Part shown: piece after piece, positions 496-15,038 of the stretch
Layout: every line of letters starts with the position of its first letter
Position numbering within the stretch: the stretch's first letter is position 1
DNA from: Paenibacillus sp. MMS20-IR301
GTDB lineage: Bacteria; Bacillota; Bacilli; Paenibacillales; Paenibacillaceae
NCBI RefSeq assembly: GCF_032302195.1
Contig: NZ_CP135275.1
Coordinates: forward strand, 5,666,001 to 5,730,000
Direction: 5' to 3'
Length of the DNA: 64,000 bases
The notes under the pieces: generated by a model
What the model was told of the DNA's origin: nothing
What the model saw: only the letters and a program-made list of their open reading frames with translations
Databases searched by the model: none
Made by a program: the position numbers and the translations under genes

Positions 496-1619
496 TTAAT
501 CCTTATCTCTCCCAAGTGCTGTACTCATCACATTGATTGTTTTCTCATGCGTTTTATCAAACCGGTGAGTATAGATCTTGTTTGTTGTAGCCAAATCAGA
601 ATGCCCTAACGCTTCCGAGATTGCCTTTAAGTCAACACCCGCTTCATAGAGAATACTTGCAAAAGTATGACGCAAATCATGAAGTCTAATTTTAGGCAAT
701 GCATTACGCTCTAAGAATAAGCCAAATTGCTCGGTCAGCGTATTCACACGATACGGCTTTCCATTGTCCTGGATATAAACATAGCCACTATCAATGTACT
801 CATCTCCCAGCATCTACTTGAACTCTTCTTGGCGCTCTCTGGCCTTGTTAAGGACCTCAAACAGTTCATCCGTCATATAAGCACACGCTTGCTCTGTTCC
901 GTCTTAGGGGCTTTTACGATCTCCTTACTGCCTGCGCTAGTACGAACCTCTGCTATCTGAATGCTTCTATCCTTGAAGTTAATGTACTTCCATTGAAGAC
1001 CTACAATCTCTTCACGTCTAAGTCCCAAATAACCGGCCAGATATACGGGTAATTCAAGCTTGGTGTCTTTTACTCTGTCTAACAGAATATTTAATTGATC
1101 CCGGGTATAAGACTGGCCTACAAACCGTTCTTTCTTAGGAAGAGTTACAGCGTCCGATACGTTACGATGCACAAATTGCTGCTTCAGGCCGTAATCCAAC
1201 GCTTTACGAATACAGGCATGATGTTTATGTACAGTATTTGGAGAAAGTAGCTTGTCATCCATTAGATATTTATAAGATTGTTGGATGTGTGCAGGTTGCA
1301 GCTTTTGTAACTCGAAGTTACCCAAAAAGGGGATAATATGCTTATAGATAATATTTCTGTAACCATAAATGGTTGTCTCTTCGCAGTTATACTTTACGTA
1401 GTTCTCTATCCAATGCTCAAGAAATTCGGAGAAGGTCATTTTTGTCGTCTGGACCAATAAATTACGTTGCTGATTATATTCAAATTCATTCAATAACTTC
1501 CTAGCATCGGCCTCAGAGGAAGCGGACGTATATTTCCTAATTCGTTTGCCTTTACTATCTGTACCAAAATCAAATGTAACCCGAAATTTGGTTCCAACCG
1601 TGGTGATGCTCCCTACCAT
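496..1619 (-). pseudogene. Tyrosine recombinase (phage/ICE-type integrase), disrupted
   Basis: The two halves of one integrase are in different frames. The N-terminal half (1619-873, ATG with AGGAGA upstream) has an arm-binding region, a SAM-like core-binding domain and the first catalytic Arg in GYLGLRREEI. The C-terminal half (813-496) has HDLRHTF, LGHSD and the Tyr nucleophile in NKIYTH, so every catalytic residue survives. Near 877-880 the frame shifts after SKRVL. The correct downstream frame (MTDELFEVLNKARE) then meets an in-frame TAG at 816-814 just before MLGDEY. Two independent lesions argue for decay rather than one sequencing error. The gene is oriented away from the adjacent ssrA end, as expected for an integrase targeting that site. 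Confidence 0.85.
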
Positions 1620-1828: not shown

Positions 1829-1831
1829 GGA

Positions 1832-1924
1832 TGGAGCCGAGGGGAGTCGAACCCCTGTCCGAAGATAACGGCACATAAGTTTCTACGAGTGTAGTCACGG
1901 ATTTGATGTCACCCTAGAAGCCCC
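1832..1924 (-). repeat. Duplicated 3' end of ssrA (attachment-site copy)
   Basis: This 93-base stretch matches the last 93 bases of the intact tmRNA gene (10224-10316) with four mismatches. The 49 bases nearest the 3' end are identical. It contains the T-arm and the 3' acceptor strand but none of the tag-coding region, so it is not a functional tmRNA. Such partial copies mark the far end of elements that integrate into ssrA and rebuild the gene. The clustered mismatches away from the end suggest this copy has a different origin or has been drifting. Confidence 0.85.
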
Positions 1925-1980: not shown

Positions 1981-2103
1981 CTACTTCCTACGCATAACTA
2001 ATCTTAAATATTCTAAATCGTACTCAAATGTCTTATGAAGCTCCGACAAGTCATATTGATTAAGATATGAGATTATGCTCTCTAACGTTGCAATTCGCAT
2101 CAT
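1981..2103 (-). CDS. Small protein, 40 aa, translationally coupled
   Basis: This short frame starts at ATG 2103, overlapping the TGA of the preceding 61-residue gene as ATGA; a second ATG follows directly. It encodes 40 residues, including ESIISYLNQYDL and ending MRRK before TAG. Charge and helix-forming residues suggest a small helical protein. No family is recognised. The stop/start overlap and the same orientation as four upstream small genes are the evidence that it is real. Confidence 0.4.
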   Translation of the reverse strand: MMRIATLESIISYLNQYDLSELHKTFEYDLEYLRLVMRRK

Positions 2104-2285
2104 ATAGGAAAGATCCCCATAGTATCAATATCAGCTAAGACCCTTCGCTGCTTTTCCAACTCCACCATCCTTTCAATAACTTCCTTAAAGCCTCTTAATG
2201 ATTTTTCATTTCTAAATTCGATTGGCCTTTCAATATCAACATACATTAACTCCTCTTTATATTCTTGAAGGGTTTTATATCGCAT
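2100..2285 (-). CDS. Small hypothetical protein, 61 aa
   Basis: Encodes 61 residues beginning MRYKTLQEYKEEL, highly charged and probably all alpha-helical, with KEVIERMVELEKQRR suggesting a short coiled coil. It starts 8 bases after the previous gene ends, and its stop overlaps the next start, so it belongs to a run of small co-directional genes. The ribosome binding site is weak, which fits translational coupling. Function unknown. Confidence 0.5.
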   Translation of the reverse strand: MRYKTLQEYKEELMYVDIERPIEFRNEKSLRGFKEVIERMVELEKQRRVLADIDTMGIFPI

Positions 2286-2293
2286 TTGCTCAG

Positions 2294-2491
2294 CTAAATC
2301 TGCTCTCCTTTGATCTGGGCCAAGACGAACTTAGTTCTCCAGGCAACGAATGTTTCTTTGGGTACTCCGAGTTCAGTTGAGCCGTCCCACTGATCCATGT
2401 GATGCTCTACAATAAGTTCATGCATAATATCCTTGAGTGACTTACCATATTTCTTTTCTATTTCTTCTTGGTATTCTTTATTTGTCTTCAT
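2294..2491 (-). CDS. Small protein with HTH-like helix pattern, 65 aa
   Basis: The start is ATG 2491, with GGTGAG a few bases upstream; a GTG at 2497 is an alternative. The sequence MKTNKEYQEEIEKKYGKSL continues into GSTELGVPKETFVAWRTKF. The latter resembles the turn and recognition helix of a helix-turn-helix, so a small DNA-binding protein is possible. The gene follows within a few bases of the 106-residue gene upstream. I cannot name a family. Confidence 0.5.
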   Translation of the reverse strand: MKTNKEYQEEIEKKYGKSLKDIMHELIVEHHMDQWDGSTELGVPKETFVAWRTKFVLAQIKGEQI

Positions 2492-2497
2492 GCACAC

Positions 2498-2818
2498 TCA
2501 CCCGTTAATGAGATTTCGTAATTCATTCAATGCTGACTTCGTGAAGTTAGCAACAAATGCTTCGACATCAGCTACTTCTTCTTTATTAAACTCCAATGTT
2601 TGTACTGCAACGACTGCTTTTCCATTTTGAATATCAGCTAGCTCAGTACTACCTTTCTTAATCCTATGATAATTGGTTCCACCATCTTCATAGAGCAGTA
2701 CTCGATGAACAAAGTCGCCTGGATAGTATGTAATACATTGATAGTACATCATTCGAATGTTGTCTTCTGTAATTGCACTTTCTAACGCTTTAATTGTCGC
2801 TGAAGTATAAAATCCCAT
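2498..2818 (-). CDS. Hypothetical protein, 106 aa
   Basis: Starts at ATG 2818 behind GGGAG. The 106-residue soluble protein has a mixed alpha/beta character, with a possible beta hairpin around GDFVHRVLLYEDGGTNYHRI and a helical C-terminus (EVADVEAFVANFTKSALNEL). No catalytic motif is visible and the family is not recognised. It lies in the chain of small genes downstream of the HTH protein at 2858-3592. Confidence 0.55.
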   Translation of the reverse strand: MGFYTSATIKALESAITEDNIRMMYYQCITYYPGDFVHRVLLYEDGGTNYHRIKKGSTELADIQNGKAVVAVQTLEFNKEEVADVEAFVANFTKSALNELRNLING

Positions 2819-2857: not shown

Positions 2858-3592
2858 TCAGAACTCCTCTACACTCACAGTACCACTGCTAATGAGCGCC
2901 AACTCCAGCTTTTCTCTATCCTTAGTAGATAAAACAATCTTCATTCTATTGCTTTGTCCTGGATAACCCAAGATACCCTCAAACTGATTTCTCACTTCCT
3001 TATTCTTGAAAATATAGATATAATCATATCCCTCAAGAAACGGGAACGAATCTGATAGCTCTACAGGAAGCCTCTCCCACTGGTAAGATGCCGCTCTAAA
3101 CCCTCTTGTAGGTTTAGGCGCGATGACTGGAATAAGCCAATCCCTTCCAACTTTTCTTGCTGTCCGTAGTTTGCCCCTACGAATCCATTGACGCACCGTA
3201 ATATCAGATACATCATTAAGCTTAGCAAATTGATCTACTGTAAAGTAATCACATTTGACACTTAGCAGGGTAAACTCCTCTGTGGATGTAGAGGACTCTA
3301 GCTCCCCGCCTTCATCAAGGTTAAATTCCTCACAATAATAAAGTCTTAGATCTATACCATCATTGGTCAGAGCGTAGTCGTAATACCACCAGTCATCTGT
3401 TAATATTGGGAGACTACAATTTTCAAGTGCTTGTTGAAACCTTATACATAAGTTATGCATTTGTTTATATAACTCTGATTTCAAATCTTCGGGGTCTGGT
3501 GCATATTGTTCCATGTACTTTTGGAAATCTCTTTGAACGTCCGCTTTGTTATGACAATACCATTTCTTAAACAATTCTAAGCTTCCTCTCAT
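2858..3592 (-). CDS. Excisionase/MerR-type HTH protein with unknown flanking regions
   Basis: A 244-residue protein starting at ATG 3592 behind GAGGTGAG. The N-terminal 110 residues are helical and acidic with no known motif. Residues about 116-155 (FTVDQFAKLNDVSDITVRQW, then IRRGKL and RKVGRDWLIP) match the winged-helix DNA-binding pattern of HTH_17/excisionase and MerR families, including the terminal W-hairpin. A further 90 residues of unknown fold follow. It could act as repressor of its own operon, since a 16-bp palindrome overlaps the promoter-like sequence just upstream, or as a recombination directionality factor. Confidence 0.6.
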   Translation of the reverse strand: MRGSLELFKKWYCHNKADVQRDFQKYMEQYAPDPEDLKSELYKQMHNLCIRFQQALENCSLPILTDDWWYYDYALTNDGIDLRLYYCEEFNLDEGGELESSTSTEEFTLLSVKCDYFTVDQFAKLNDVSDITVRQWIRRGKLRTARKVGRDWLIPVIAPKPTRGFRAASYQWERLPVELSDSFPFLEGYDYIYIFKNKEVRNQFEGILGYPGQSNRMKIVLSTKDREKLELALISSGTVSVEEF

Positions 3593-3715: not shown

Positions 3716-4135
3716 TTATATTGTTAGCCGAAGAGCATCTTCAACATGAATATCTACATACTTATTTCTTTTCTTCCCTTCCAGAGCTGCCCAAACAAAA
3801 CGGACTTCGTTCCCTTCCTCATCTACGCTCCACAGAGCATACGGGTCCTCAACAATTGCTCTAAGCCCAATTTTATCAGAGTAATCATGCAAAACGTTAT
3901 CCGAAGCATGCTTATGACCAATAGTTATCAAATCGCCCTTCTTCAGTTCACCATTTGTTTCATAGAGTAATTTATGTAGCCCTTCTAATAAGTTAACGAT
4001 CTCTTTCCTGTCTACAGAGCCGAAGTAAACCAAATCATTATTCGAAACATTTAATTTTATAGACATAATATTATTATCATCTGTGGTTGCAATCGATACT
4101 ATGTCATTATTATGCAAGGAAATACGTGCATCCAT
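3716..4135 (-). CDS. Hypothetical protein, 139 aa
   Basis: Starts at ATG 4135 behind GAAGGGATG. The acidic 139-residue protein is mostly beta-strand in character, for example NDIVSIATTDDNNIMSIKL near the N-terminus, then GDLITIGHKHASDN and RFVWAALEG. No motif or membrane segment is seen. It is the last gene of the set that begins with the ATPase-nuclease, 30 bases after the zinc-peptidase-like gene ends. Confidence 0.55.
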   Translation of the reverse strand: MDARISLHNNDIVSIATTDDNNIMSIKLNVSNNDLVYFGSVDRKEIVNLLEGLHKLLYETNGELKKGDLITIGHKHASDNVLHDYSDKIGLRAIVEDPYALWSVDEEGNEVRFVWAALEGKKRNKYVDIHVEDALRLTI

Positions 4136-4165
4136 TATTATTCATCCCTTCTACTTCCATCGCCT

Positions 4166-4642
4166 TCATCTTACTTTAGCGATGGATGAAAAGTAATCCC
4201 TAAGTAGAGCTTGATGCTCCTGTAAAAAGGTAGTACAGAAAGGATTCTTCTCTTCAAACGATGTTCCCTTCATAACTGCTACAGAAAAGCAATCTGCAAA
4301 AACTTCGGCTAACATTTCGTCTGAGCACGGCTTAAACGCTCCTCTTACGGCTTCCTTAAATGAGCTCGGTACAATTGTTAAGCCCTTCGTCATATGCACT
4401 TGAACTACATGTCCTAACTCATGCATGAAAATATATTCTGGGTTGGAGCTGCTATCAAGATCATTCTTATAAATGACCACTAAATGAATATGCGGGAAGT
4501 ATGCTGCGTTCATGCTTCTGTTCCCATACGGAACAAAATAGAAGCGAATAGGCACACCGTTAGTATTACGAGCAATAAATCGTCTTACCCCAAAACACTC
4601 GATTATTTGAAGTAAGTTTTGAGCAGCTGTCATTTTCAACAT
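4166..4642 (-). CDS. HExxH zinc-peptidase-like protein (ImmA/IrrE-like)
   Basis: A 158-residue soluble protein with the zincin signature MHELGHVVQ (HExxH at residues 74-78). The downstream EMLAEVFADCF, at about residues 109-119, can supply the third, acidic metal ligand. This arrangement and the small size recall ImmA/IrrE-type peptidases of mobile elements, which cleave repressors, but similarity beyond the motif is not evident. Its start overlaps the end of the preceding gene by 7 bases, so the two are probably translationally coupled. In this context it may process a regulator or effector of the ATPase-nuclease set. That role is inferred. Confidence 0.65.
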   Translation of the reverse strand: MLKMTAAQNLLQIIECFGVRRFIARNTNGVPIRFYFVPYGNRSMNAAYFPHIHLVVIYKNDLDSSSNPEYIFMHELGHVVQVHMTKGLTIVPSSFKEAVRGAFKPCSDEMLAEVFADCFSVAVMKGTSFEEKNPFCTTFLQEHQALLRDYFSSIAKVR

Positions 4643-4956
4643 TGCTCGTTAGATTCATGGAGTTCATCTAAATCTTGTAGTAAGTTTTTCAATAACTCAG
4701 TCTGCTTCTCATAATCAAAAACCGTTACATAAAAAAATAGAAATTCTGCAACAAAACAAGATAATCCCCTTTTAGGCCCTACCATCATAAATGGAGTAGC
4801 TACACTGACCTTTAATTCAATCAGGAATTGTTGAAATATACTATGATACGAGCTGTTACTCTGCTTACTCTCTGATCGATTAATAAGAAGTGAAATGAGT
4901 TCCCTCTGGGAGTATAGTGTACCCTGCATTAACAGCTCATAAATCTGGTTATCCAT
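4636..4956 (-). CDS. Hypothetical protein, 106 aa, upstream of peptidase gene
   Basis: The frame is open from 5043, but ATG 4956 is preceded by AGGGG at 7 bases and avoids overlap with the gene before it. The N-terminus MDNQIYELLMQGTLYSQREL is helical, and YSQRELISLLI could be part of an HTH. A hydrophobic patch FVAEFLFFYVTVF is followed by an acidic tail (LQDLDELHESNEQ). No family is recognised. It overlaps the peptidase gene by 7 bases and could be its partner or inhibitor. Confidence 0.5.
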   Translation of the reverse strand: MDNQIYELLMQGTLYSQRELISLLINRSESKQSNSSYHSIFQQFLIELKVSVATPFMMVGPKRGLSCFVAEFLFFYVTVFDYEKQTELLKNLLQDLDELHESNEQC

Positions 4957-4987
4957 CAAGACACCCCTGCTTATTTTTGATAATAAC

Positions 4988-5428
4988 TTAACTTTTCTGT
5001 GCTTGCTTTCTAGCCCATTCCATCCCTGGAATCGCTGCTTCAAGGACAGCCGCTACCCAAAGCAGTTCGCAAGTGTCCAATATGAGTCGAGCTAGAGGTA
5101 ATTTAGTAAACTGGCGCTGCCGCACAACTATCGCTTCCATTAAGTTTTTTTTATCAAGTTCACCTAACTCTGGTATCTTCGATAAGAACTTAGCAGCCAG
5201 TATACCATTAATCCTCTCAAGCTCCTCGTTTGCCTCTTCCAACGTTAAACGATATTGTTCCCAGTCGATATCTAGGCCTGAAATATAGAGTTGATCTGCC
5301 TCGCGCTTCGCTACCCATTGTTCTCCGTGTTCATTTTCAAAGTACCAGTAACTATGTTCCTGTTCTCCCAGTGCCCACGTTGGGGCGTTATCACGTTGTA
5401 ATCTGAGCTTTACATTTGTTGTTTTCAT
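4988..5428 (-). CDS. Hypothetical protein, 146 aa, partner of the ATPase-nuclease
   Basis: Starts at ATG 5428 behind GAGGAG, 36 bases after the ATPase-nuclease gene ends. The first 60 residues look beta-rich (HSYWYFENEHGEQWVAKREA), the remainder helical, with RLTLEEANEELERINGIL and a hydrophobic LARLILDTCELLWVAAVLEA. No catalytic motif is seen. The strong ribosome binding site and tight linkage suggest it is made together with the ATPase and may be an adaptor. Confidence 0.55.
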   Translation of the reverse strand: MKTTNVKLRLQRDNAPTWALGEQEHSYWYFENEHGEQWVAKREADQLYISGLDIDWEQYRLTLEEANEELERINGILAAKFLSKIPELGELDKKNLMEAIVVRQRQFTKLPLARLILDTCELLWVAAVLEAAIPGMEWARKQAQKS

Positions 5429-5464
5429 TTGTGCTCTCCTCTATTATAAAATCATTATTCCGTA

Positions 5465-7402
5465 CTACGCAGTTTCTGTATCTTCGAACAAAAGTTCCTG
5501 ATAGGGCTCATTCAGCACCTTTTGGACAATGGTCGAGTCAGTATATCCTTTATACCGATCATCTAGTTGCTCCTTGAGCCGCATTAACCGCTGATTAGCT
5601 GTACTTACCAGTTGTCCAAAAGTAGTCGCCTCAATGCGACCCCGCTCAGGATTATCACCAACTTTACGGATTCGGGTTATTTTGGAATCAATTTCATGAC
5701 CTACAACAAATGCGTTAATGAATGGTGTACCACTTAGATGACCCGAATTAAGAAGGTCCTCTACATAATGTCCCGCCTGATCCATCTCATTGCGCCCTAT
5801 AGCAAAGCCGCCTCGTTTCAATTCAATAATTAGTATTCGCTTCATCTTCAACAGAGGGCTGTCATCATCGAACTCTTCTGAACAAATAGCAGATAGCGTT
5901 GCATTTTCCACAATAATGATGTCAGGACGATTACGCGCATTGTAAAATGCATCCTTGCTTACTTTCCTTTGAAACAACTTACTCATGGCCGACGTGAGCG
6001 ACACATTGGACGTATAATGCGGAGAATCGAACTCTGGCCCAAATAACCATCGGGCTTGAAGAACCAGTGGATGTAATGTCTTCAGTTCATCTGTCGTGGG
6101 ATCTTCTGAAAATCTGCCTAGAGCTTCAATTACAAGCAAACGCTTATCAATTTCATCGAGAACAACCAGGGCATCTTTAACACTCCAATCATCTAAAAGC
6201 CGATTCAACCCTTCAACATCTTCTTCAGATAACATAGATAGCTTGTGAATCAAGTTAGCTCCACTTCTCGATTTTTCAAGCTGAATAACAGCTTGTACCG
6301 CTGCTGACAAATGCTCTTGATTGATCGTCGGCTGTTCTTCTGTCAATTGCTCGACAAAATGGGACACCTCGACCCTTCCAAGAGCATGTAATTGAGATAG
6401 TTCCGTTCGATGCTGGTACAGTACAGCGTGCTGCGTCTCTTGAATCCTGTCCTTCATTGAGTTCTTATAAATAGTCTCAATATTTGATGCCACAATTCGA
6501 TAGACCTCATCAATTAGCGGCCATTTCTTGAATGCCGACCAATCAGGCATAACTGCATCAAACAAATCATTCGTTTTGACAACAATGGTATGTCGTTTTG
6601 CGAAACTCGTTCTGCCGTCGATAGAATAATCACCCAGTGTCCAACTTGGTTCACCAACCAGTCTATTGCCAACCCAAAAAGCTACTCCGTGCTGACGGGC
6701 AGTCTTCGCCGTTTTGGATGAATCGATGATCACAAGTTCGAGAGTTACATTATCGTTAACAATAATTTGTCTTGAATCAATTAGTCCTCCATGCTGCATT
6801 AGCTCAATTGAGGCACCATTCACGGTCACTTGAAATCTTGGGTCTTGCATAAATCTCGCCGAAAGTAGATCACGAACCACTTTCGGATTAGGCAAATTCC
6901 GTTCCACTTTCGCCCTCAAAGTCGTGCCGTGGCCCACTGTTTGGATACGCTCCTCACGCAAAAGAGTAAACGGCTGCTGTCCACTCGTAACCGCAACAAC
7001 AAACCTTGAGCCTACTCCACTTTCATGAACAGTTTCAACAATATACTCATTTGAAAAACACAGCATACCATGTCTGCCGATACCATTCCTGCCAAATGCC
7101 CGACGATAGCCACTACCATTTTCTTCAGGGAACTTTACAATATCGCCTTGATGTTTCAGGCGATTGTAGCCAAGTGTCATCCATCGCAACTTGAAATCTT
7201 CTGGTTTAAGGCCTGCTCCATTATCTATCACTACAATTTCGTCGGAATATTCGTTTGGGATTGTAATACTAACCTGAGAAGCACCAGCATCCCATGCATT
7301 CGCCACCAGCTCTGTCAGTGCAATATCTGGTGAATTCGCAAGTGCTCCGAGGGTACGTAATAAATAATCCTCTTCAAAAAGCGATCCATGTAGATAGTCC
7401 AC
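5465..7402 (-). CDS. GHKL ATPase fused to PD-(D/E)XK-like nuclease
   Basis: A 645-residue protein starting at GTG 7402 behind GAGGTGG. The N-terminal third has all three marks of the GHKL (Hsp90/MutL/MORC) ATP-binding fold: the N box ELVANAWDAG at 31-40, DNGAG at 60-64 and the lid GRNGIGRHG at 104-112. A long helical linker (about 300-470) leads to RPDIIIV (Asp494) and IIELKRGG (Glu527, Lys529), spaced as in a PD-(D/E)XK nuclease site; a Shedu/DUF4263-like relationship is possible. GHKL ATPases joined to restriction-type nucleases are known from prokaryotic restriction-like operons related to MORC. I infer ATP-gated DNA cleavage in phage or plasmid defence. It heads a co-directional set on an ssrA island. 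Confidence 0.75.
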   Translation of the reverse strand: MDYLHGSLFEEDYLLRTLGALANSPDIALTELVANAWDAGASQVSITIPNEYSDEIVVIDNGAGLKPEDFKLRWMTLGYNRLKHQGDIVKFPEENGSGYRRAFGRNGIGRHGMLCFSNEYIVETVHESGVGSRFVVAVTSGQQPFTLLREERIQTVGHGTTLRAKVERNLPNPKVVRDLLSARFMQDPRFQVTVNGASIELMQHGGLIDSRQIIVNDNVTLELVIIDSSKTAKTARQHGVAFWVGNRLVGEPSWTLGDYSIDGRTSFAKRHTIVVKTNDLFDAVMPDWSAFKKWPLIDEVYRIVASNIETIYKNSMKDRIQETQHAVLYQHRTELSQLHALGRVEVSHFVEQLTEEQPTINQEHLSAAVQAVIQLEKSRSGANLIHKLSMLSEEDVEGLNRLLDDWSVKDALVVLDEIDKRLLVIEALGRFSEDPTTDELKTLHPLVLQARWLFGPEFDSPHYTSNVSLTSAMSKLFQRKVSKDAFYNARNRPDIIIVENATLSAICSEEFDDDSPLLKMKRILIIELKRGGFAIGRNEMDQAGHYVEDLLNSGHLSGTPFINAFVVGHEIDSKITRIRKVGDNPERGRIEATTFGQLVSTANQRLMRLKEQLDDRYKGYTDSTIVQKVLNEPYQELLFEDTETA

Positions 7403-7521: not shown

Positions 7522-7548
7522 ATAAAAAGAAAAGCGCCGTAAGGCGCT
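7522..7548 (-). terminator. Terminator split by IS insertion (surviving copy)
   Basis: On the minus strand the stem AGCGCC-TTAC-GGCGCT is followed by TTTTCTTTTT, a standard intrinsic terminator. The stem-loop is also the 16-base target duplication of the adjacent IS. This copy keeps its T tract and should still work. It terminates transcription coming out of the IS before the ATPase-nuclease promoter region. Confidence 0.75.
7533..7548 (+). repeat. 16-bp target-site duplication, left copy
   Basis: AGCGCCGTAAGGCGCT is repeated in the same orientation at 9107-9122. Because the centre GTAA is not self-complementary, direct orientation can be told from inverted, so this is a target duplication and not part of the terminal inverted repeats. 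Confidence 0.85.
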
Positions 7549-7634
7549 CAGATTGTCGAGAAACCCAGGTCATTTAAAGACCCTGGGTTTCTTTTGTATT
7601 TCAAAGTCGAGCAGCCAATGGGAAGACGAGGGGG

Positions 7635-8995
7635 TTATCCCCGTTTTTCCCGGCGATCCAGGTGGATCGCCATCTTCTTCATGTTCTGCACGGCTGCCGT
7701 CATCAGTGCTTGTTCCCTGACATTTGGCAGTCCGCGCAACCGGCAATAGCGAAACCCATGGAGCTCTTTAGCATCCGCGAAGCTTCGCTCAATCGTTTCT
7801 TTTCGTTTGCGGTACAACTGCTTTCCCGACTTGCTGAGCCGGTTGTCTCGGACCCAATCCTTACTGTCCTCCCAGACATGCCGAGTTACCACTTTGCGGT
7901 GGTTTTTGGACTGCGTACACTGGTTTAAAAACGGGCAACTTTTGCATTGCTCTGGATCAGATGCATACTGCTGGTATCCTTTGCGGTCCGTTGTGCGGTA
8001 CTTCAGTTCTTGACCAGCCGGACAGACATACATCTCTTGCTCTGCGTTAAACGAAAACTTCCATTTTGGGAATAGTCCTTGCTTGGAATGGAATCTCCGG
8101 TGAGCAATAACGGCAAAAATCTTTCGGCTTTGCAGACCGCGGCAAATCGGTGTTGTTAAATATCCTGAATCTAGAGCAATGGCTTCCACTTGAAATCCAA
8201 AACGTTCTTGCTGCCGGTCTAGACGCGACAAATACGGCACGGAATCATGGACATTTCCGGGCGTAACATGGACATCCGTAATGAGATTGTATTTCATATC
8301 TACAGTCCGGTGGTCCAGATAAAAAAAGCCTTCCGGTTTACCATCGCGGATCATGTACCCGCTATCAGGATCGGTCTTGCTCACTTTAATTTCTTTTTCT
8401 TCGTTCACTTCCTCTCTAGGTTTTAGGGCTTTTTTCCATGGTTTTCCCGGTCTGCCTCTACCGCAGCATTGAGTTCATCTACATAATCCTTAGTATTTTG
8501 CAGCACCTGTTGTTTGGTGTATTGGTGTTTATTTGCATTGGCCTTGACGTGGGTGGAGTCCGAGACAAGAACTCGTCCGCCCACCATCCGGTGCGAAATC
8601 GCCTGAAGAACAATTTCGTCGAAAATATCCTGAAAAATGTTTGTGTCTTTAAATCGGGTACGCCGGTTCCAACTCAAGGTGGAGTGGTCTGGAACCTTGT
8701 CGGTTAATCCGAGTCCAAGAAACCAGCGGTAAGCTAAATTCGTTTGAACTTCACGTTCTAGCTGACGTTCGGAACGAACGCCGTAGAAATACCCTATGAA
8801 AAGCATTTTAAATAACACGACAGGATCAATCGCAGGGCGTCCGTTATCCGAGCAGTACAAGGGTCTAACCTTCTCATCGATAAACGAAAAATCAATATAT
8901 TTATCTACCTTGCGAAGCAAGTGGTCTTGAGGAACCAAATCTTCAATAGAAACAAATTCATAAGCTTGTTGTTTTTCTCGATTGGAGCGAAGCAT
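7635..8995 (-). CDS. IS1182-type transposase, expressed through a -1 frameshift
   Basis: Two overlapping frames (8995-8423 and 8408-7635) together give about 453 residues, a usual size for this family. The first part ends HGKKP-stop. The slippery heptamer A AAA AAG (minus strand, about 8424-8430) lies in the correct phase, and slipping back by one base continues ALKPREEVNEEK into the second frame. The DDE residues are visible in VLVSDSTHVKAN, IALDSGYLT and ERSFADAKE. A zinc-binding-like Cys cluster (CKSCPFLNQC) precedes the last. Because the site is a canonical programmed-frameshift motif, I treat the gene as possibly intact. The alternative is a simple indel in an A run. Confidence 0.8.
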
Positions 8996-9079
8996 ACTGA
9001 CACCATCCGTTCTATAAATAGTTACCTATATTATACAACATTAACGCGGTGTCGTATGAAATCAAAGTCACATAAAGAA

Positions 9080-9104
9080 GGCTGTCGAGACTTTCTCGAC
9101 AGCC
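9080..9104 (+). repeat. Subterminal perfect hairpin of the IS right end
   Basis: GGCTGTCGAGA and TCTCGACAGCC are exact reverse complements separated by CTT. The outer arm is part of the right terminal repeat, so the end can fold on itself. It may be a transposase-binding repeat or block inward transcription. Confidence 0.7.
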
Positions 9105-9106
9105 TG

Positions 9107-9122
9107 AGCGCCGTAAGGCGCT
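9107..9122 (+). repeat. 16-bp target-site duplication, right copy
   Basis: Identical to 7533-7548. On the minus strand this stem-loop is now followed by IS sequence in place of its T tract, so the right copy has lost terminator function. Confidence 0.85.
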
Positions 9123-9250
9123 ATTGTTGTCTTTTCATGGTTTCTGTATTGAAGTCCGATTCATTGGTCATTGTCTCTTTCCATTATCGCTTAGGTTCAA
9201 AGTAAACTGAGTCGCTCCAGCTTCCAACTCCACTTGAAGTTTGTAATAGC

Positions 9251-9288: not shown

Positions 9289-10104
9289 TTATTTTCTCAA
9301 TGCATTGATCTCCTGTTCTGTTAATCCAGTAGCTTTTATAATCGTTGTTATGTCTAGATTTAAGTCAAGCATATTCCTCGCGACTTCCTTTATACCTGCC
9401 AATTTAGCACTTCCCAGCATGGAGGCCTCATCATGCAAATACTTCTGTCTAGCCTCATACAACCGTCTGGCCTCTGAATCCTGACTCAAATATTGCAAGG
9501 TATCCATGGCCTTCTCCAATCCTGGCTCATTCATCTTCAGCACCTCCCATTGTGATGTATCCGCACCTTTCAGGAACAACAGCCAATTGATCAACCCGCC
9601 TTCAGACGGAACGCTATGTTCATCCAGCTTCGGCAACTCCAAGAAATGAACCTCGATGTCATCAATCAAGGATATCCCTGTTCGGTCTTCCCGCAGATGA
9701 AATACGTTATGATATTGCTCATTCTTCAAGAATCCATAGTTTAAAATGTTAATCGTTACGCATTTCTTCAACTCTGGATACTTGTCCCCTTCACTCAGTT
9801 GACTCGCATACCGTTTGCTCCAATAAAAAAGCGTTCTTTTCTCTATGTCGTACTTATTAAATAACTGCATCTCTATATCAATTAGTTTACCTTCAGAGGT
9901 CTTGGCGTAAACATCAAAAATGGATTGTTTGTCGAGCGGATCGTCTTTATCCGTATAAGGATTCATCAGGATGATCTCGGTCAGCGGCGGCTCGCCAGCT
10001 TCTGTGAAAATACAGTTAAGGAACGCCAGCAGCACATCCTTATTGTTCTCGCTGCCAAATATCCGTTTGAACACAAAATCAACACGTGGGTCCAGTAAAT
10101 CCAT
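9289..10104 (-). CDS. Rpn-family recombination-promoting nuclease / PD-(D/E)XK transposase-like
   Basis: The frame opens at 10119, but ATG 10104 is preceded by GGAG at about 9 bases and gives the family's usual start, MDLLDPRVDFVFKRIFG. The 271-residue protein has the PDDEXK_2 core in SIFDVYAKTSEGKLIDIEMQ (Asp, then ExQ in the position of ExK) and the following YWSKRYASQLSEGDKY. C-terminal helices carry DLDITTIIKATGLT, an HTH-like segment common in this family. Rpn proteins are DNA nucleases that stimulate RecA-independent recombination and have been linked to phage defence. It lies inside the island beside ssrA. Confidence 0.8.
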   Translation of the reverse strand: MDLLDPRVDFVFKRIFGSENNKDVLLAFLNCIFTEAGEPPLTEIILMNPYTDKDDPLDKQSIFDVYAKTSEGKLIDIEMQLFNKYDIEKRTLFYWSKRYASQLSEGDKYPELKKCVTINILNYGFLKNEQYHNVFHLREDRTGISLIDDIEVHFLELPKLDEHSVPSEGGLINWLLFLKGADTSQWEVLKMNEPGLEKAMDTLQYLSQDSEARRLYEARQKYLHDEASMLGSAKLAGIKEVARNMLDLNLDITTIIKATGLTEQEINALRK

Positions 10105-10182
10105 CGGCATCAGCTCCATTCGTTAATATTTATTATATCATTTTTCATTTGGAATAGGCTTTGAAGGAAAATACCTAACACG

Positions 10183-10208: not shown

Positions 10209-10223
10209 CACTGATACTCCATA

Positions 10224-10585
10224 TGGAGCCGAGGGGAGTCGAACCCCTGTCCGAAGATAACGGCACATAAGCTTCTACGAGTGTAGTTACAGTTTTGATG
10301 TCACCCTAGAAGCCCCCCGTAACCGGGTCCTCTTCGGGTCAGCCTGATTATCTTCTTCTGCTGACCCCAGGCGGAGACCAGACAGCGTATCCCACTACTT
10401 GTTAGCCCCTATCCCTGTCACATGGGCGATGCAGGGTAGAAGCACGCACACAGTTTCTTAGGCTGCGAAAGCGTAGTTGTTTTGTTGTTTGCCGTTTAAT
10501 AGGCTTTAGCGTTGATGAAGCGGACGCGTCCCCACTACTCGCTACTCATGCTCGAACTATCCCCGTCGAATCCAAGAACGGCCCC
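10224..10585 (-). ncRNA. ssrA: tmRNA (SsrA), 362 nt
   Basis: tmRNA rescues ribosomes stalled on broken messages together with SmpB. The 5' end GGGGCCG pairs with the 3' end CGGCTCC to form the acceptor stem, with discriminator A at 10224. The T-arm GGGTTCGACTCCC and the 5' motif TTGGATTCGACGGGGAT are present. The tag reading frame GGC AAA CAA ... GCC TAA encodes GKQQNNYAFAA, a hydrophobic proteolysis tag. The CCA end is not encoded. smpB lies upstream in the same orientation. The 3' end is the integration target of the neighbouring island. Confidence 0.95.
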
Positions 10586-11836: not shown

Positions 11837-14800
11837 TTAAGCCTGCGGTTTCTTCTTGCGTTTCCTGCGGCTGCCCCCTTCGGGGCTGCCGCTCTTGTCA
11901 CTGCCGGCATCTGCGGATGCCGGGTTCGTGTTCTTCACGTTCCCCGGGGTCACGGAAGTGCCAATGAACACGCCGCCTTTGTTCTTCTTCTTGCGGCGGC
12001 CCTTACCCCCGGGCGCTGCGCTGCGGCCTTCGCCGCCGAAGCTGCCGCCCAGGTCCTCGCGGCTGCGCAGCCGCGTGTTCCCGTCCACGCCGCGCAGCTC
12101 ACCGCTGCTCTGCCCGCCACTGCCGCCGCTTGGCGCGCCGTAGCCGCCCTTGCCGGAGCCGAACCCGAAGGCAATGCCGCGTCCCGCGCCACTGCCTCCG
12201 GCGTCTCCGCCGCGGCCTCTGCCGCGCTCACCGCCTGCAGCGGAAGCAGCAGCTAATGCACGCTGCGCTGCTGCCTCCGGCCCGCGTCCGCGCTTGCGGC
12301 CCCCTGCTGCGCCCCCGCCTTCACCCGGCGCTACACCCGCGCCGCCGAATCCGTCCGCATTGCCATTACCTGCGTAGCCCTCGCCTTTACCCCAAGCGCC
12401 GGCTCCGCTATTGCCTTCGCCCTTGCCCCGGCTGCCGGATTCGCCCCCGGTATTGCCGCCTAGGCTCCAAGCACCGGCCCCGCTATCCTTCTTGCTTTTG
12501 CCGGCTGCGCCGAAGATACTTCCTTTCGCTTTACCGCCACTTTTAGCTTTACCTGCGGCGCTGCCGTTCTTGCCATTACCCGCACCGGCTGCGCTGCCGG
12601 GTTTGCCTTTCCCGCGGCCTTTACCGCCAGCTTTGCCTGCCAGTGGCTTGTTGAACCCACCGGCTCCCGGACGGCCGCCTTTGCCGCCGCGGCCACCGTA
12701 GCTCCGGTGTTCACCCGCTGCGCGGGGCTTCATGTCAACCAGTTCAAAGTCGATCGTATGGTCATCCATGTTGACTTTAGCCACACGGATCTTCACTTCA
12801 TCACCGATACGGAATACCTTGGAGGTCCGCCCGCCAATCAGCGCCATATGCGCTTCATCGAAGTGATAGTAATCGTCTGTCAGCGCGCTGAGACGAATCA
12901 GTCCTTCAACCGTGTTGTCCAGTTCAATGAACATCCCGAAGCTGGTAACACTGCTGACCATGGCGTCGAATTCTTCGCCGACCTTGTCCTGCATGTACTC
13001 GGCTTTCTTCAGCTGCTCTGTATCCCGTTCAGCCTCTACAGCTACACGCTCACGCTCCGAGGACTGCTGGGCGATATCCGGCATCCGTCCCGCCAGATAT
13101 TCATGCCGTTTCTCGGTCAGTGCTCCGCCATTCTCCAGGACTTCACGCATTACACGGTGAATAACGAGGTCAGGGTAGCGGCGGATCGGCGAAGTGAAGT
13201 GGGAGTAGAATTCTGCTGCCAGTCCGAAGTGTCCTGTGCTCTCAGCATCATATTTCGCCTGCTTCATCGACCGCAGCATCATTGTGCTGATGACGGTCTG
13301 CTCCTTGGTGCCTTGAATCTGCTCCAGCAGATCCTGCAGCGCACGCGGATGTACAGAGTTGCCTCGTCCCTTGACATGGTAGCCGAAGTTAGAAGCAAAA
13401 GCCATGAAATTCTGCAGCTTCTCCGGGTCCGGATCCTCATGAATCCGGTACAGGAACGGCACCTTCAGCCAGTGGAAATGCTCAGCCACCGTCTCATTGG
13501 CCGCAAGCATGAACTCTTCAATAATCTGCTCGGCCACGGAACGTTCCCGCTTCACAATATCGATCGCTTTACCGGCTTCATCCACAATGATTTTGCTCTC
13601 TTCGAAATCGAAATCAACCGCACCGCGCCGCATCCGCGCACCGCGCAGCTTCATGGCAAGCTCCTTCATCAGACGGAAATCACCGATCAGCGGGGCGTAA
13701 CGCTCCAGCAGCTCAGGATCTTCATCCTCGACGATTTTACGGACATCGGAATAGGTCATGCGCTCCTTGGTCCGGATTACGCTCGTGAAGACATCATGCT
13801 TCACAACCTTCATATGCTCATCAAATTCCATTTCGCAGGACATGGTCAGCCGGTCCACCTTAGGATTCAAGCTGCATATACCGTTTGACAGCCGGTGCGG
13901 CAGCATAGGAATTACCCGGTCCACCAGATAGACACTACAGCCGCGGTCATAAGCTTCCTTATCCAGCTCAGAGCCTTCACGCACATAATAACCAACATCG
14001 GCAATATGCACGCCCAGCTTGTAGTGCCCGTTCTCCAGACGTTCCACGTTAACCGCATCATCGAGGTCTTTGGCATCTGCGCCGTCAATGGTTACTATAT
14101 TTAATCCGCGTAAATCGCGGCGCCCCTGCTGAATAATCTCCTCATCGGTAATCGAATCGGGCGCCTGCTCCGCTTCCTTCATCACTTCAGCCGGGAAAGC
14201 CTCAGGCAGCTGATGTTTGCGGATAACCGATAGAATATCTACCCCCGGATCATCCTTATGGCCGAGAATCTCAATGATCTCTCCTTCAGCCGCTGCACGG
14301 CCTTCCGGATAACTTACGATGCGGACGACAACCTTTTCCCCATCAACAGCTCCTTTAAAACTCTGTTTGGGGATGAAAATATCACGGTTAATCCGCTTAT
14401 CATCCGGCAGCACAAAGCCATACGTCTCCAGGCTCTGGAATACGCCCACCGTCTGAGACACGCCTCTGATCAGAATCCGCTCCACTTCGCCTTCCATCCG
14501 TCCGCCGGACTGGCTTCTTGAGGTAATCCGGATCAGTACGATATCTCCGTTCATTGCCCCCTTCAAATCATTTGCGTGAATGTATACATCGGGATGATCG
14601 CGGTCATCGGGAATTAAGAAGGCAAAGCCTTTCGCATGAGCCTGCAGCCGCCCGCGCAGCAGATCCATCCGCTCCGGTACGCCGTAACGGTTATTCCGGG
14701 TCAGAATAATCCGGCCGTCCTTTTCCAGGTCAATCAGCAAGCGTTCAAAGGCTACAAAAGCCTCTCTATCCTCAATTGCGAAATGGCTCACCAGTTCATC

Positions 14801-14863
14801 ATAAGTTAATGGTTTATAAGCAGTCTCCCGCATAAAATCAAGCAGGTTATCCTGTGTTATCAT
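11837..14863 (-). CDS. rnr: Ribonuclease R with long Gly/Arg-rich tail
   Basis: A processive 3'-5' exoribonuclease of the RNB family that degrades structured RNA and acts with trans-translation. The start is ATG 14863 behind GAGGTGA; the frame opens 9 codons earlier. Order of parts: N-terminal winged helix (1-70), cold-shock OB folds (about 75-215), the catalytic RNB domain with the Asp cluster [11 protein letters not shown] near 263, and an S1 domain (about 628-710). The core ends near residue 710. About 300 further residues follow, made almost wholly of Gly, Ala, Ser, Lys and Arg with many GGRG/GKG repeats and an RRKRKKK end. B. subtilis RNase R is about 780 residues, so the tail is exceptional. 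It lies upstream of smpB-ssrA. Confidence 0.93.
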
Positions 14864-15038
14864 GTTCGTCACCTCGGCCCTCCGCAGCATTCACATGCCG
14901 CTGGCATATATGTATGTCTTGTCCTAACGTATAACCAATAATTCAAGTAAATTTTACCTTTATATACTTCATACCCTAGTATACACGAAATCAATCCGGG
15001 CCATCCCTGTTATGATGTTCGGTATATTAAATCTGCAC

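Follow-up and report, generated by a model that had tools for sequence, protein, structure and literature searches.

In a window of 64,000 nucleotides from Paenibacillus sp. MMS20-IR301 (contig NZ_CP135275.1, positions 5,666,001 to 5,730,000), five consecutive open reading frames (ORFs) on the minus strand, here called genes A to E, had been put forward in an initial annotation as an undescribed defence system consisting of an ATPase-nuclease fusion, dedicated small partners and a protease. Our analysis of the sequence places gene A as a divergent member of the known paraMORC3 / BbrUII-HgiDII kind, with relatives that stand without genes B to E. The five ORFs are real and closely spaced: 36 nt separate A from B, 31 nt B from C and 30 nt D from E, and C and D overlap by 7 nt. 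Gene A starts with GTG, preceded by a ribosome site AGGTGG recognised by eye. The run of genes in the same direction is, however, longer than proposed and goes on past E with genes F, G, H and I (Table 1). The DNA-binding domain of gene F matches HTH_17 with an E value of 2.6e-7 and TIGR01764 with 2.8e-6, the latter slightly below the cut-off.

Table 1. Genes and other features at the locus (positions within the window; aa, amino acids).
Feature	Position	Strand	Description
Gene A	5465-7402	-	645 aa; N-terminal GHKL ATPase, then a middle and helical region, then a PD-(D/E)XK-like nuclease (about 435-620)
Gene B	4988-5428	-	146 aa; orphan family 'ENEHGEQWVAK..ISGLDIDW'
Gene C	4636-4956	-	106 aa; no family
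Gene D	4166-4642	-	158 aa; HExxH (MHELGH), later AEVFAD; zinc-peptidase-like; no significant family
Gene E	3716-4135	-	139 aa; no family
Gene F	2858-3592	-	244 aa; HTH_17/excisionase-type DNA-binding domain
Gene G	2498-2818	-	106 aa; no assigned function
Genes H and I	2100-2497	-	67 aa and 61 aa
Distal att-like copy of the ssrA 3' end	1831-1879	-	exact 49 bp
Proximal copy, ssrA 3' end	10223-10271	-	exact 49 bp; tmRNA ssrA 10224-10585
Tyrosine integrase	496-1619	-	two ORFs in different frames (873-1619 found with Pfam; 496-813 recognised by eye)
Insertion sequence	7527-9128	-	DUF772 and DDE_Tnp_1_6 ORFs in different frame; 37-nt inverted repeats
Rpn-family nuclease/transposase gene	9289-10119	-	inside the bounded segment

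The N-terminal part of gene A is a GHKL ATPase domain. Residues 25-135 match HATPase_c_3 with an E value of 1.8e-15, and the N box, DNGAG and GRNGIGRHG named in the initial annotation were all found. Across seven aligned sequences, E30, N34, D59, G61, G63 and G103-R-N-G106 are invariant (the start residue is not counted in this numbering). MutL models match the ATP-binding motifs (residues 24-73, 5.3e-9), the PADLOC model REase_II matches the N-terminal part (1.2e-12), and the BbrUII/HgiDII model NF050001 matches with 1.7e-25, best over residues 28-205. The phage family phrog_6203 matches gene A in two stretches (5.9e-39); the C-terminal 216 residues alone, for which no NCBIfam match was obtained, align with its positions 470-634 at 3.6e-10. 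As a control we used a phage protein annotated as ParaMORC3 (L003, PV340563.1), the gene of which adjoins a dcm gene. This protein passes NF050001 along its whole length with 751.4 bits, and its C-terminal 235 residues match phrog_6203 at 3e-95. From the matches of gene A and of the control to phrog_6203, both ends of gene A share homology with the BbrUII/HgiDII-type family. The C-terminus of a relative 49% identical to gene A (L046) shows a weak match to NF050001 itself (0.0014).

At the level of motifs, homology and secondary structure, gene A carries a putative C-terminal domain of the restriction endonuclease (RE) type with the residues E-D-ExK. E439, D494 and K529 are invariant in all seven C-terminal sequences of one alignment; E527 is kept in six and replaced by Asp in L048. 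The numbering Asp494, Glu527 and Lys529 of the initial annotation is right. In an AlphaFold2 model of gene A built from seven sequences (pLDDT 75, pTM 0.43), strands bear D494 and E527-x-K529 and are followed by a helix and further strands, an arrangement that by eye resembles restriction-type nucleases. The PDB matches listed for this model are GHKL proteins, mostly Hsp90 and TRAP1, with MORC2 at rank 33 and low TM-scores. When the S5-like domain was tested, Hsp90, TRAP1 and MORC2 chains aligned over 365-441 columns with E values of 1e-13 to 1e-11, at TM-scores of only about 0.25. RIIA, HSP90 and topoisomerase-like GHKL proteins were among the 50 matches listed from a viral fold library. In the model of the C-terminal piece alone, most blocks between residues 91 and 170 reach pLDDT 69-90. 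Searches of Pfam with the C-termini of seven relatives gave matches for single members, namely HSDR_N (0.015), Peptidase_C13 (0.036), SduA_C (0.07) and HSDR_N_2 (0.18). The assignment to PD-(D/E)XK is thus based on motif conservation, restriction-family homology and secondary structure, without a significant fold match. For the fold that the initial annotation had named as a test, these three lines hold, but the fold search itself remained below significance.

In the host family, full-length copies of gene A were found in two of 295 genomes, the own genome and one further (G143), and some match to A occurs in 201; the other matches listed are short, N-terminal and probably due to MutL and its kin. 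In a sample of the class, a profile of A at E 1e-10 detected six of 398 genomes, with full length in the own genome only and N-terminal matches only in the five others. A search of genome contigs revealed two loci with copies 89% and 84% identical to A, both in Paenibacillus; the former and the copy of G143 probably represent the same genome. Matches occurred in 26 of 72,556 plasmid records (13 at a coverage of at least 80%), in one of 50,697 phage records (N-terminal part only) and in nine loci of viral contigs, four of them full-length. An earlier viral scan with the single A protein as query had given no match.

Twelve full-length loci (L004-L009, L046-L049, L079 and L080) were examined with flanks of 6-8 kb, except for one side of L049 with about 2.2 kb. 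They include the relatives 84%, 89% and 49% identical to A and six of the 13 well-covered plasmid records; left out were H5 and H6, which score as H4, and H10-H14, which are 22-23% identical. None of the twelve contains B, C, D or E (tblastn, E up to 1). The sole match covers 33 residues of B in L047 (E value 0.36) and was not counted. Defence-type genes lie within 3 kb of A relatives (Shedu, HsdR-HsdM-HsdS, HsdM-HsdS, MmeI, HepT-like and AbiEii). In L009 HsdR-HsdM-HsdS follows directly downstream, and L008 contains HsdM-HsdS, with HsdM 2.4 kb from A, as well as a DUF433/DUF5615 pair. In a Rhizobium plasmid (L079, 5980-9385) the A relative lies 10 bp upstream of a Shedu gene (SduA_C 3.4e-20). 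AbiEii was found near the relatives in L004 and L005, a HepT-like gene in L006 and MmeI in L007, and in L046 an ORF of 1035 residues, by eye like a type I R subunit, lies about 1 kb before A. The relatives of gene A have a defence-island habit and no constant partner. The copies 84-89% identical to A stand in different surroundings.

Genes B to E, in turn, recur without A. Gene B occurs in eight of the 295 family genomes including the own one, in G226 and G288 as fragments only. Six of the seven other B regions (L038-L044) hold smpB and ssrA, with ssrA at most 5 kb from B, L042 being the one without, and in the six regions besides G288 A, C, D and E were not found. Serine recombinase domains were detected with Pfam in all four B regions scanned (L038, L039, L040 and L042). 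Viral contigs contain three relatives of B (L063-L065), two of them partial, plasmids two partial matches (72,556 records) and phages none (50,697 records); a search of the PDB gave nothing under E 0.2. Overall, the B family, recognisable by ENEHGEQW and ISGLDI, recurs without A or C-E in L038-L042, L044 and L063-L065, often near ssrA and serine recombinases.

Gene D was found in three family genomes, the own one, G288 (71% identity) and, as a weak match (7.5e-4), G206; the latter corresponds to an ORF of 267 residues with a HELAH motif, M48-like by eye. Across the class, the D profile detected the own genome only (one of 215), and viral contigs contained no relative of D. Gene E occurs in the own genome and in G288, its sole relative found among the 295. 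Neither D nor E matched any of the 50,697 phage or 72,556 plasmid records. Gene C had no match in the plasmid records and was otherwise compared with the fetched loci; phages and family genomes were not searched for it. The HExxH motif of D could be confirmed, and the peptidase-like label of the initial annotation is kept in the form zinc-peptidase-like. Candidates for a more defined function of D were rejected (PADLOC CapP 0.0087, Pfam Pellino_RING 0.014, M48 0.33; nothing under E 0.1 in the PDB).

The region of G288 holds, at ssrA, remnants of B followed by C-D-E-H-I, and it lacks A. Here C and D are fused in one ORF of 284 residues (L043, 7623-8477), which suggests that C and the HExxH protein may act together, and H and I are likewise joined in one ORF. 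The block is closed by a near-copy of the ssrA end with three mismatches in 18 positions, a fit that was equalled by one of 100 mononucleotide shuffles. C-D-E is thus a rare cargo module, and A is separable from it. Among the 295 genomes, searched for B, D and E, only the own genome combines A with any of these genes. The conserved neighbourhood of all five genes, which had been named in advance as a check, is absent from the collections searched, and the notion of dedicated small partners and a protease is not supported.

The surroundings of the genes are those of mobile DNA. The segment between the two copies of the ssrA end comprises 8.4 kb with the Rpn gene, the insertion sequence and genes A-I. 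The insertion sequence lies between the Rpn gene and A, 125 nt upstream of the latter, and its inverted repeats contain the palindrome AGCGCC-GTAA-GGCGCT. The GC content of genes A-I is low, at 0.34-0.44, compared with 0.50 for the window, 0.52 for smpB and 0.58 for rnr. The tyrosine integrase sits just outside the distal copy and is probably inactive. No further copy of the ssrA end was found in the 30 kb leftward (21-nt core, up to six mismatches, same strand). The segment looks like an ssrA-integrated mobile element beside a second element. Left of the window, a second defence-like cluster contains HsdM, two HsdS-type ORFs and a SNF2-type helicase (L061, 1854-9496). A protein of 1017 residues, by eye ribonuclease R-like and with a long C-terminal tail rich in Gly, Ser and Lys, is encoded at 11837-14890 of the window. 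In this bacterial family, small cargo genes such as B and C-D-E are found repeatedly at ssrA.

We consider it likely that gene A acts by itself, as an ATP-gated DNA nuclease directed against foreign DNA, and that B-E are separate cargo, not needed for A. This reading draws on the GHKL domain, the conserved nuclease-type residues, the homology to a restriction family at both ends, the relatives without B-E and the mobile-island setting; the claim of an ATPase-nuclease of the restriction or defence kind on an island is supported. In analogy to other GHKL proteins and VcSduA, ATP would make the paired N-terminal domains of a dimer close around DNA like a clamp. Once a foreign DNA feature is engaged, the C-terminal E-D-ExK nuclease would be allowed to cut the DNA, so that phage or incoming mobile DNA would be restricted. 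B, C, D and E would have joined A by accretion as cargo of the same ssrA segment. The mechanism of the clamp, the DNA target, the nuclease activity and the defence role of this copy are inferred.

Several findings weigh against this interpretation. The 36-nt gap is compatible with co-transcription of A and B, and a partnership of the two is possible in this strain. With NF050001 gene A scores 89.6 bits, far below the curated cut-off of 550 bits. Modelled alone, the C-terminal piece reaches a pLDDT of 59.5, which is low confidence; its five best PDB matches are McrBC and BbvCI with E values of 0.09-0.27, not significant, and many of those ranked next are Ras-type GTPases. When the C-terminal alignment was run as a sequence profile against the PDB, no restriction nuclease was returned, the best match being LSm3 (0.024), and Pfam gave nothing for the C-terminal piece from the window.

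Alternatively, gene A could serve a type I system encoded nearby as an auxiliary nuclease, reading its methylation and cutting unmarked or partly marked DNA. The type I genes of L009, L008 and L046 would fit such a role, as would the own genome, where HsdM and HsdS lie about 19-21 kb from A. The type I genes of the own genome, however, are some 20 kb off and beyond an integrase, HsdR, HsdM and HsdS are missing from the incomplete gene tables of the five annotated alphaproteobacterial plasmid regions, and the nearness is given without correction for how common type I systems are beside island genes. We regard this role as unlikely. A related reading, in which the Gram-positive branch of these GHKL nucleases is a functional type I add-on that travels with HsdM/HsdS and takes type I methylation as its signal of self and non-self, seems rather unlikely as well. 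If true, the MORC-like clamp would provide type I systems with another nuclease arm, one that works without a helicase. The type I genes close to the closest relatives of A provide a testable lead.

A reading without any role in defence, with gene A as a type II restriction enzyme that has decayed or moonlights, or as a repair factor like MutL, is improbable. Type II restriction enzymes usually have a cognate DNA methyltransferase nearby. None was found among the scanned proteins of the segment, the nearest found being the type I HsdM about 21 kb off, with the rest of the window not scanned; a type II restriction-modification pair was rejected on this basis. This lack, as well as the MutL-model match to the ATP-binding motifs, would be in accordance with decay or repair. 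On the other hand, the catalytic-type residues are kept in an intact ORF, the copies 84-89% identical stand in different surroundings, and relatives are found on plasmids and phage contigs. Also improbable is a single undescribed defence system A-B-C-D-E, with the nuclease regulated or delivered by small partners and the HExxH protein: short gaps, the C-D overlap, one common direction, the order C-D-E-H-I preserved in G288 and the C-D fusion speak for it, but it was rejected on the neighbourhoods, with no B-E at any of the twelve A loci, no A in the G288 block and neither A nor C-E in the six other B regions.

Judged by titles and the opening of abstracts, none of the papers listed in searches of the literature deals with the five-gene set, which does not prove absence. 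Gene A itself has described counterparts. The paraMORC3 proteins, reported in 2008, combine GHKL and S5 domains with a C-terminal RE-type domain with E-D-ExK, and are described as having a stand-alone subset without conserved neighbours and a patchy distribution (PMC2292703). Gene A likewise unites a GHKL N-terminus and a putative E-D-ExK C-terminus in one protein, and its relatives have varying neighbours. In contrast to the prevalence in proteobacteria and Bacteroidetes stated there by Iyer, Abhiman and Aravind (2008; PMC2292703), gene A belongs to a Gram-positive branch and shares 30-33% identity with four alphaproteobacterial members. With BbrUII/HgiDII (NF050001) it shares the N-terminal match, a similar length and, linked via phrog_6203 and L046, the C-terminus. 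It differs in its low score (89.6 bits against the cut-off of 550) and in having no methyltransferase beside it, whereas phage PhiR44_1 has a dcm gene.

Similarity to Shedu SduA (PF14082) is limited to a profile alignment that pairs ExK and a later Q..Y motif with a probability of only 0.9%, and in L079 the A relative and the Shedu gene are two separate, neighbouring genes. SduA_C was not detected in gene A at E up to 1 (whole protein) or up to 10 (C-terminus), and in its relatives only once in seven (0.07). The own genome gave no match either in a search that matched eight of 200 genomes. With no significant SduA_C match, membership of gene A in Shedu was rejected, and owing to the shared architecture and the lack of a detectable SduA_C it is filed under paraMORC3. 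VcSduA of Vibrio cholerae, shown in 2025 to be anti-phage, is a GHKL-DUF4263 protein of a kind formerly annotated as paraMORC3; as a single gene it acts against phages, and its protection, for which both ATPase and nuclease residues are needed, is abolished by E27A or K557A (PMC12137116). Compared by description and not by sequence, gene A is similar as a single gene with a GHKL ATPase and a putative C-terminal PD-(D/E)XK-type domain; unlike VcSduA, which its authors assign to DUF4263/SduA_C, it has no SduA_C match. With gene A belonging to the paraMORC3 / BbrUII-HgiDII kind and one protein of this architecture already reported as anti-phage, the term undescribed does not apply to gene A. The five-gene system is thus set aside. 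Gene A takes its place in a kind of which one member has been shown by experiment to be anti-phage, and contributes a Gram-positive branch, divergent and intact, with close copies in different surroundings, where one could study how a GHKL clamp is coupled to a nuclease.

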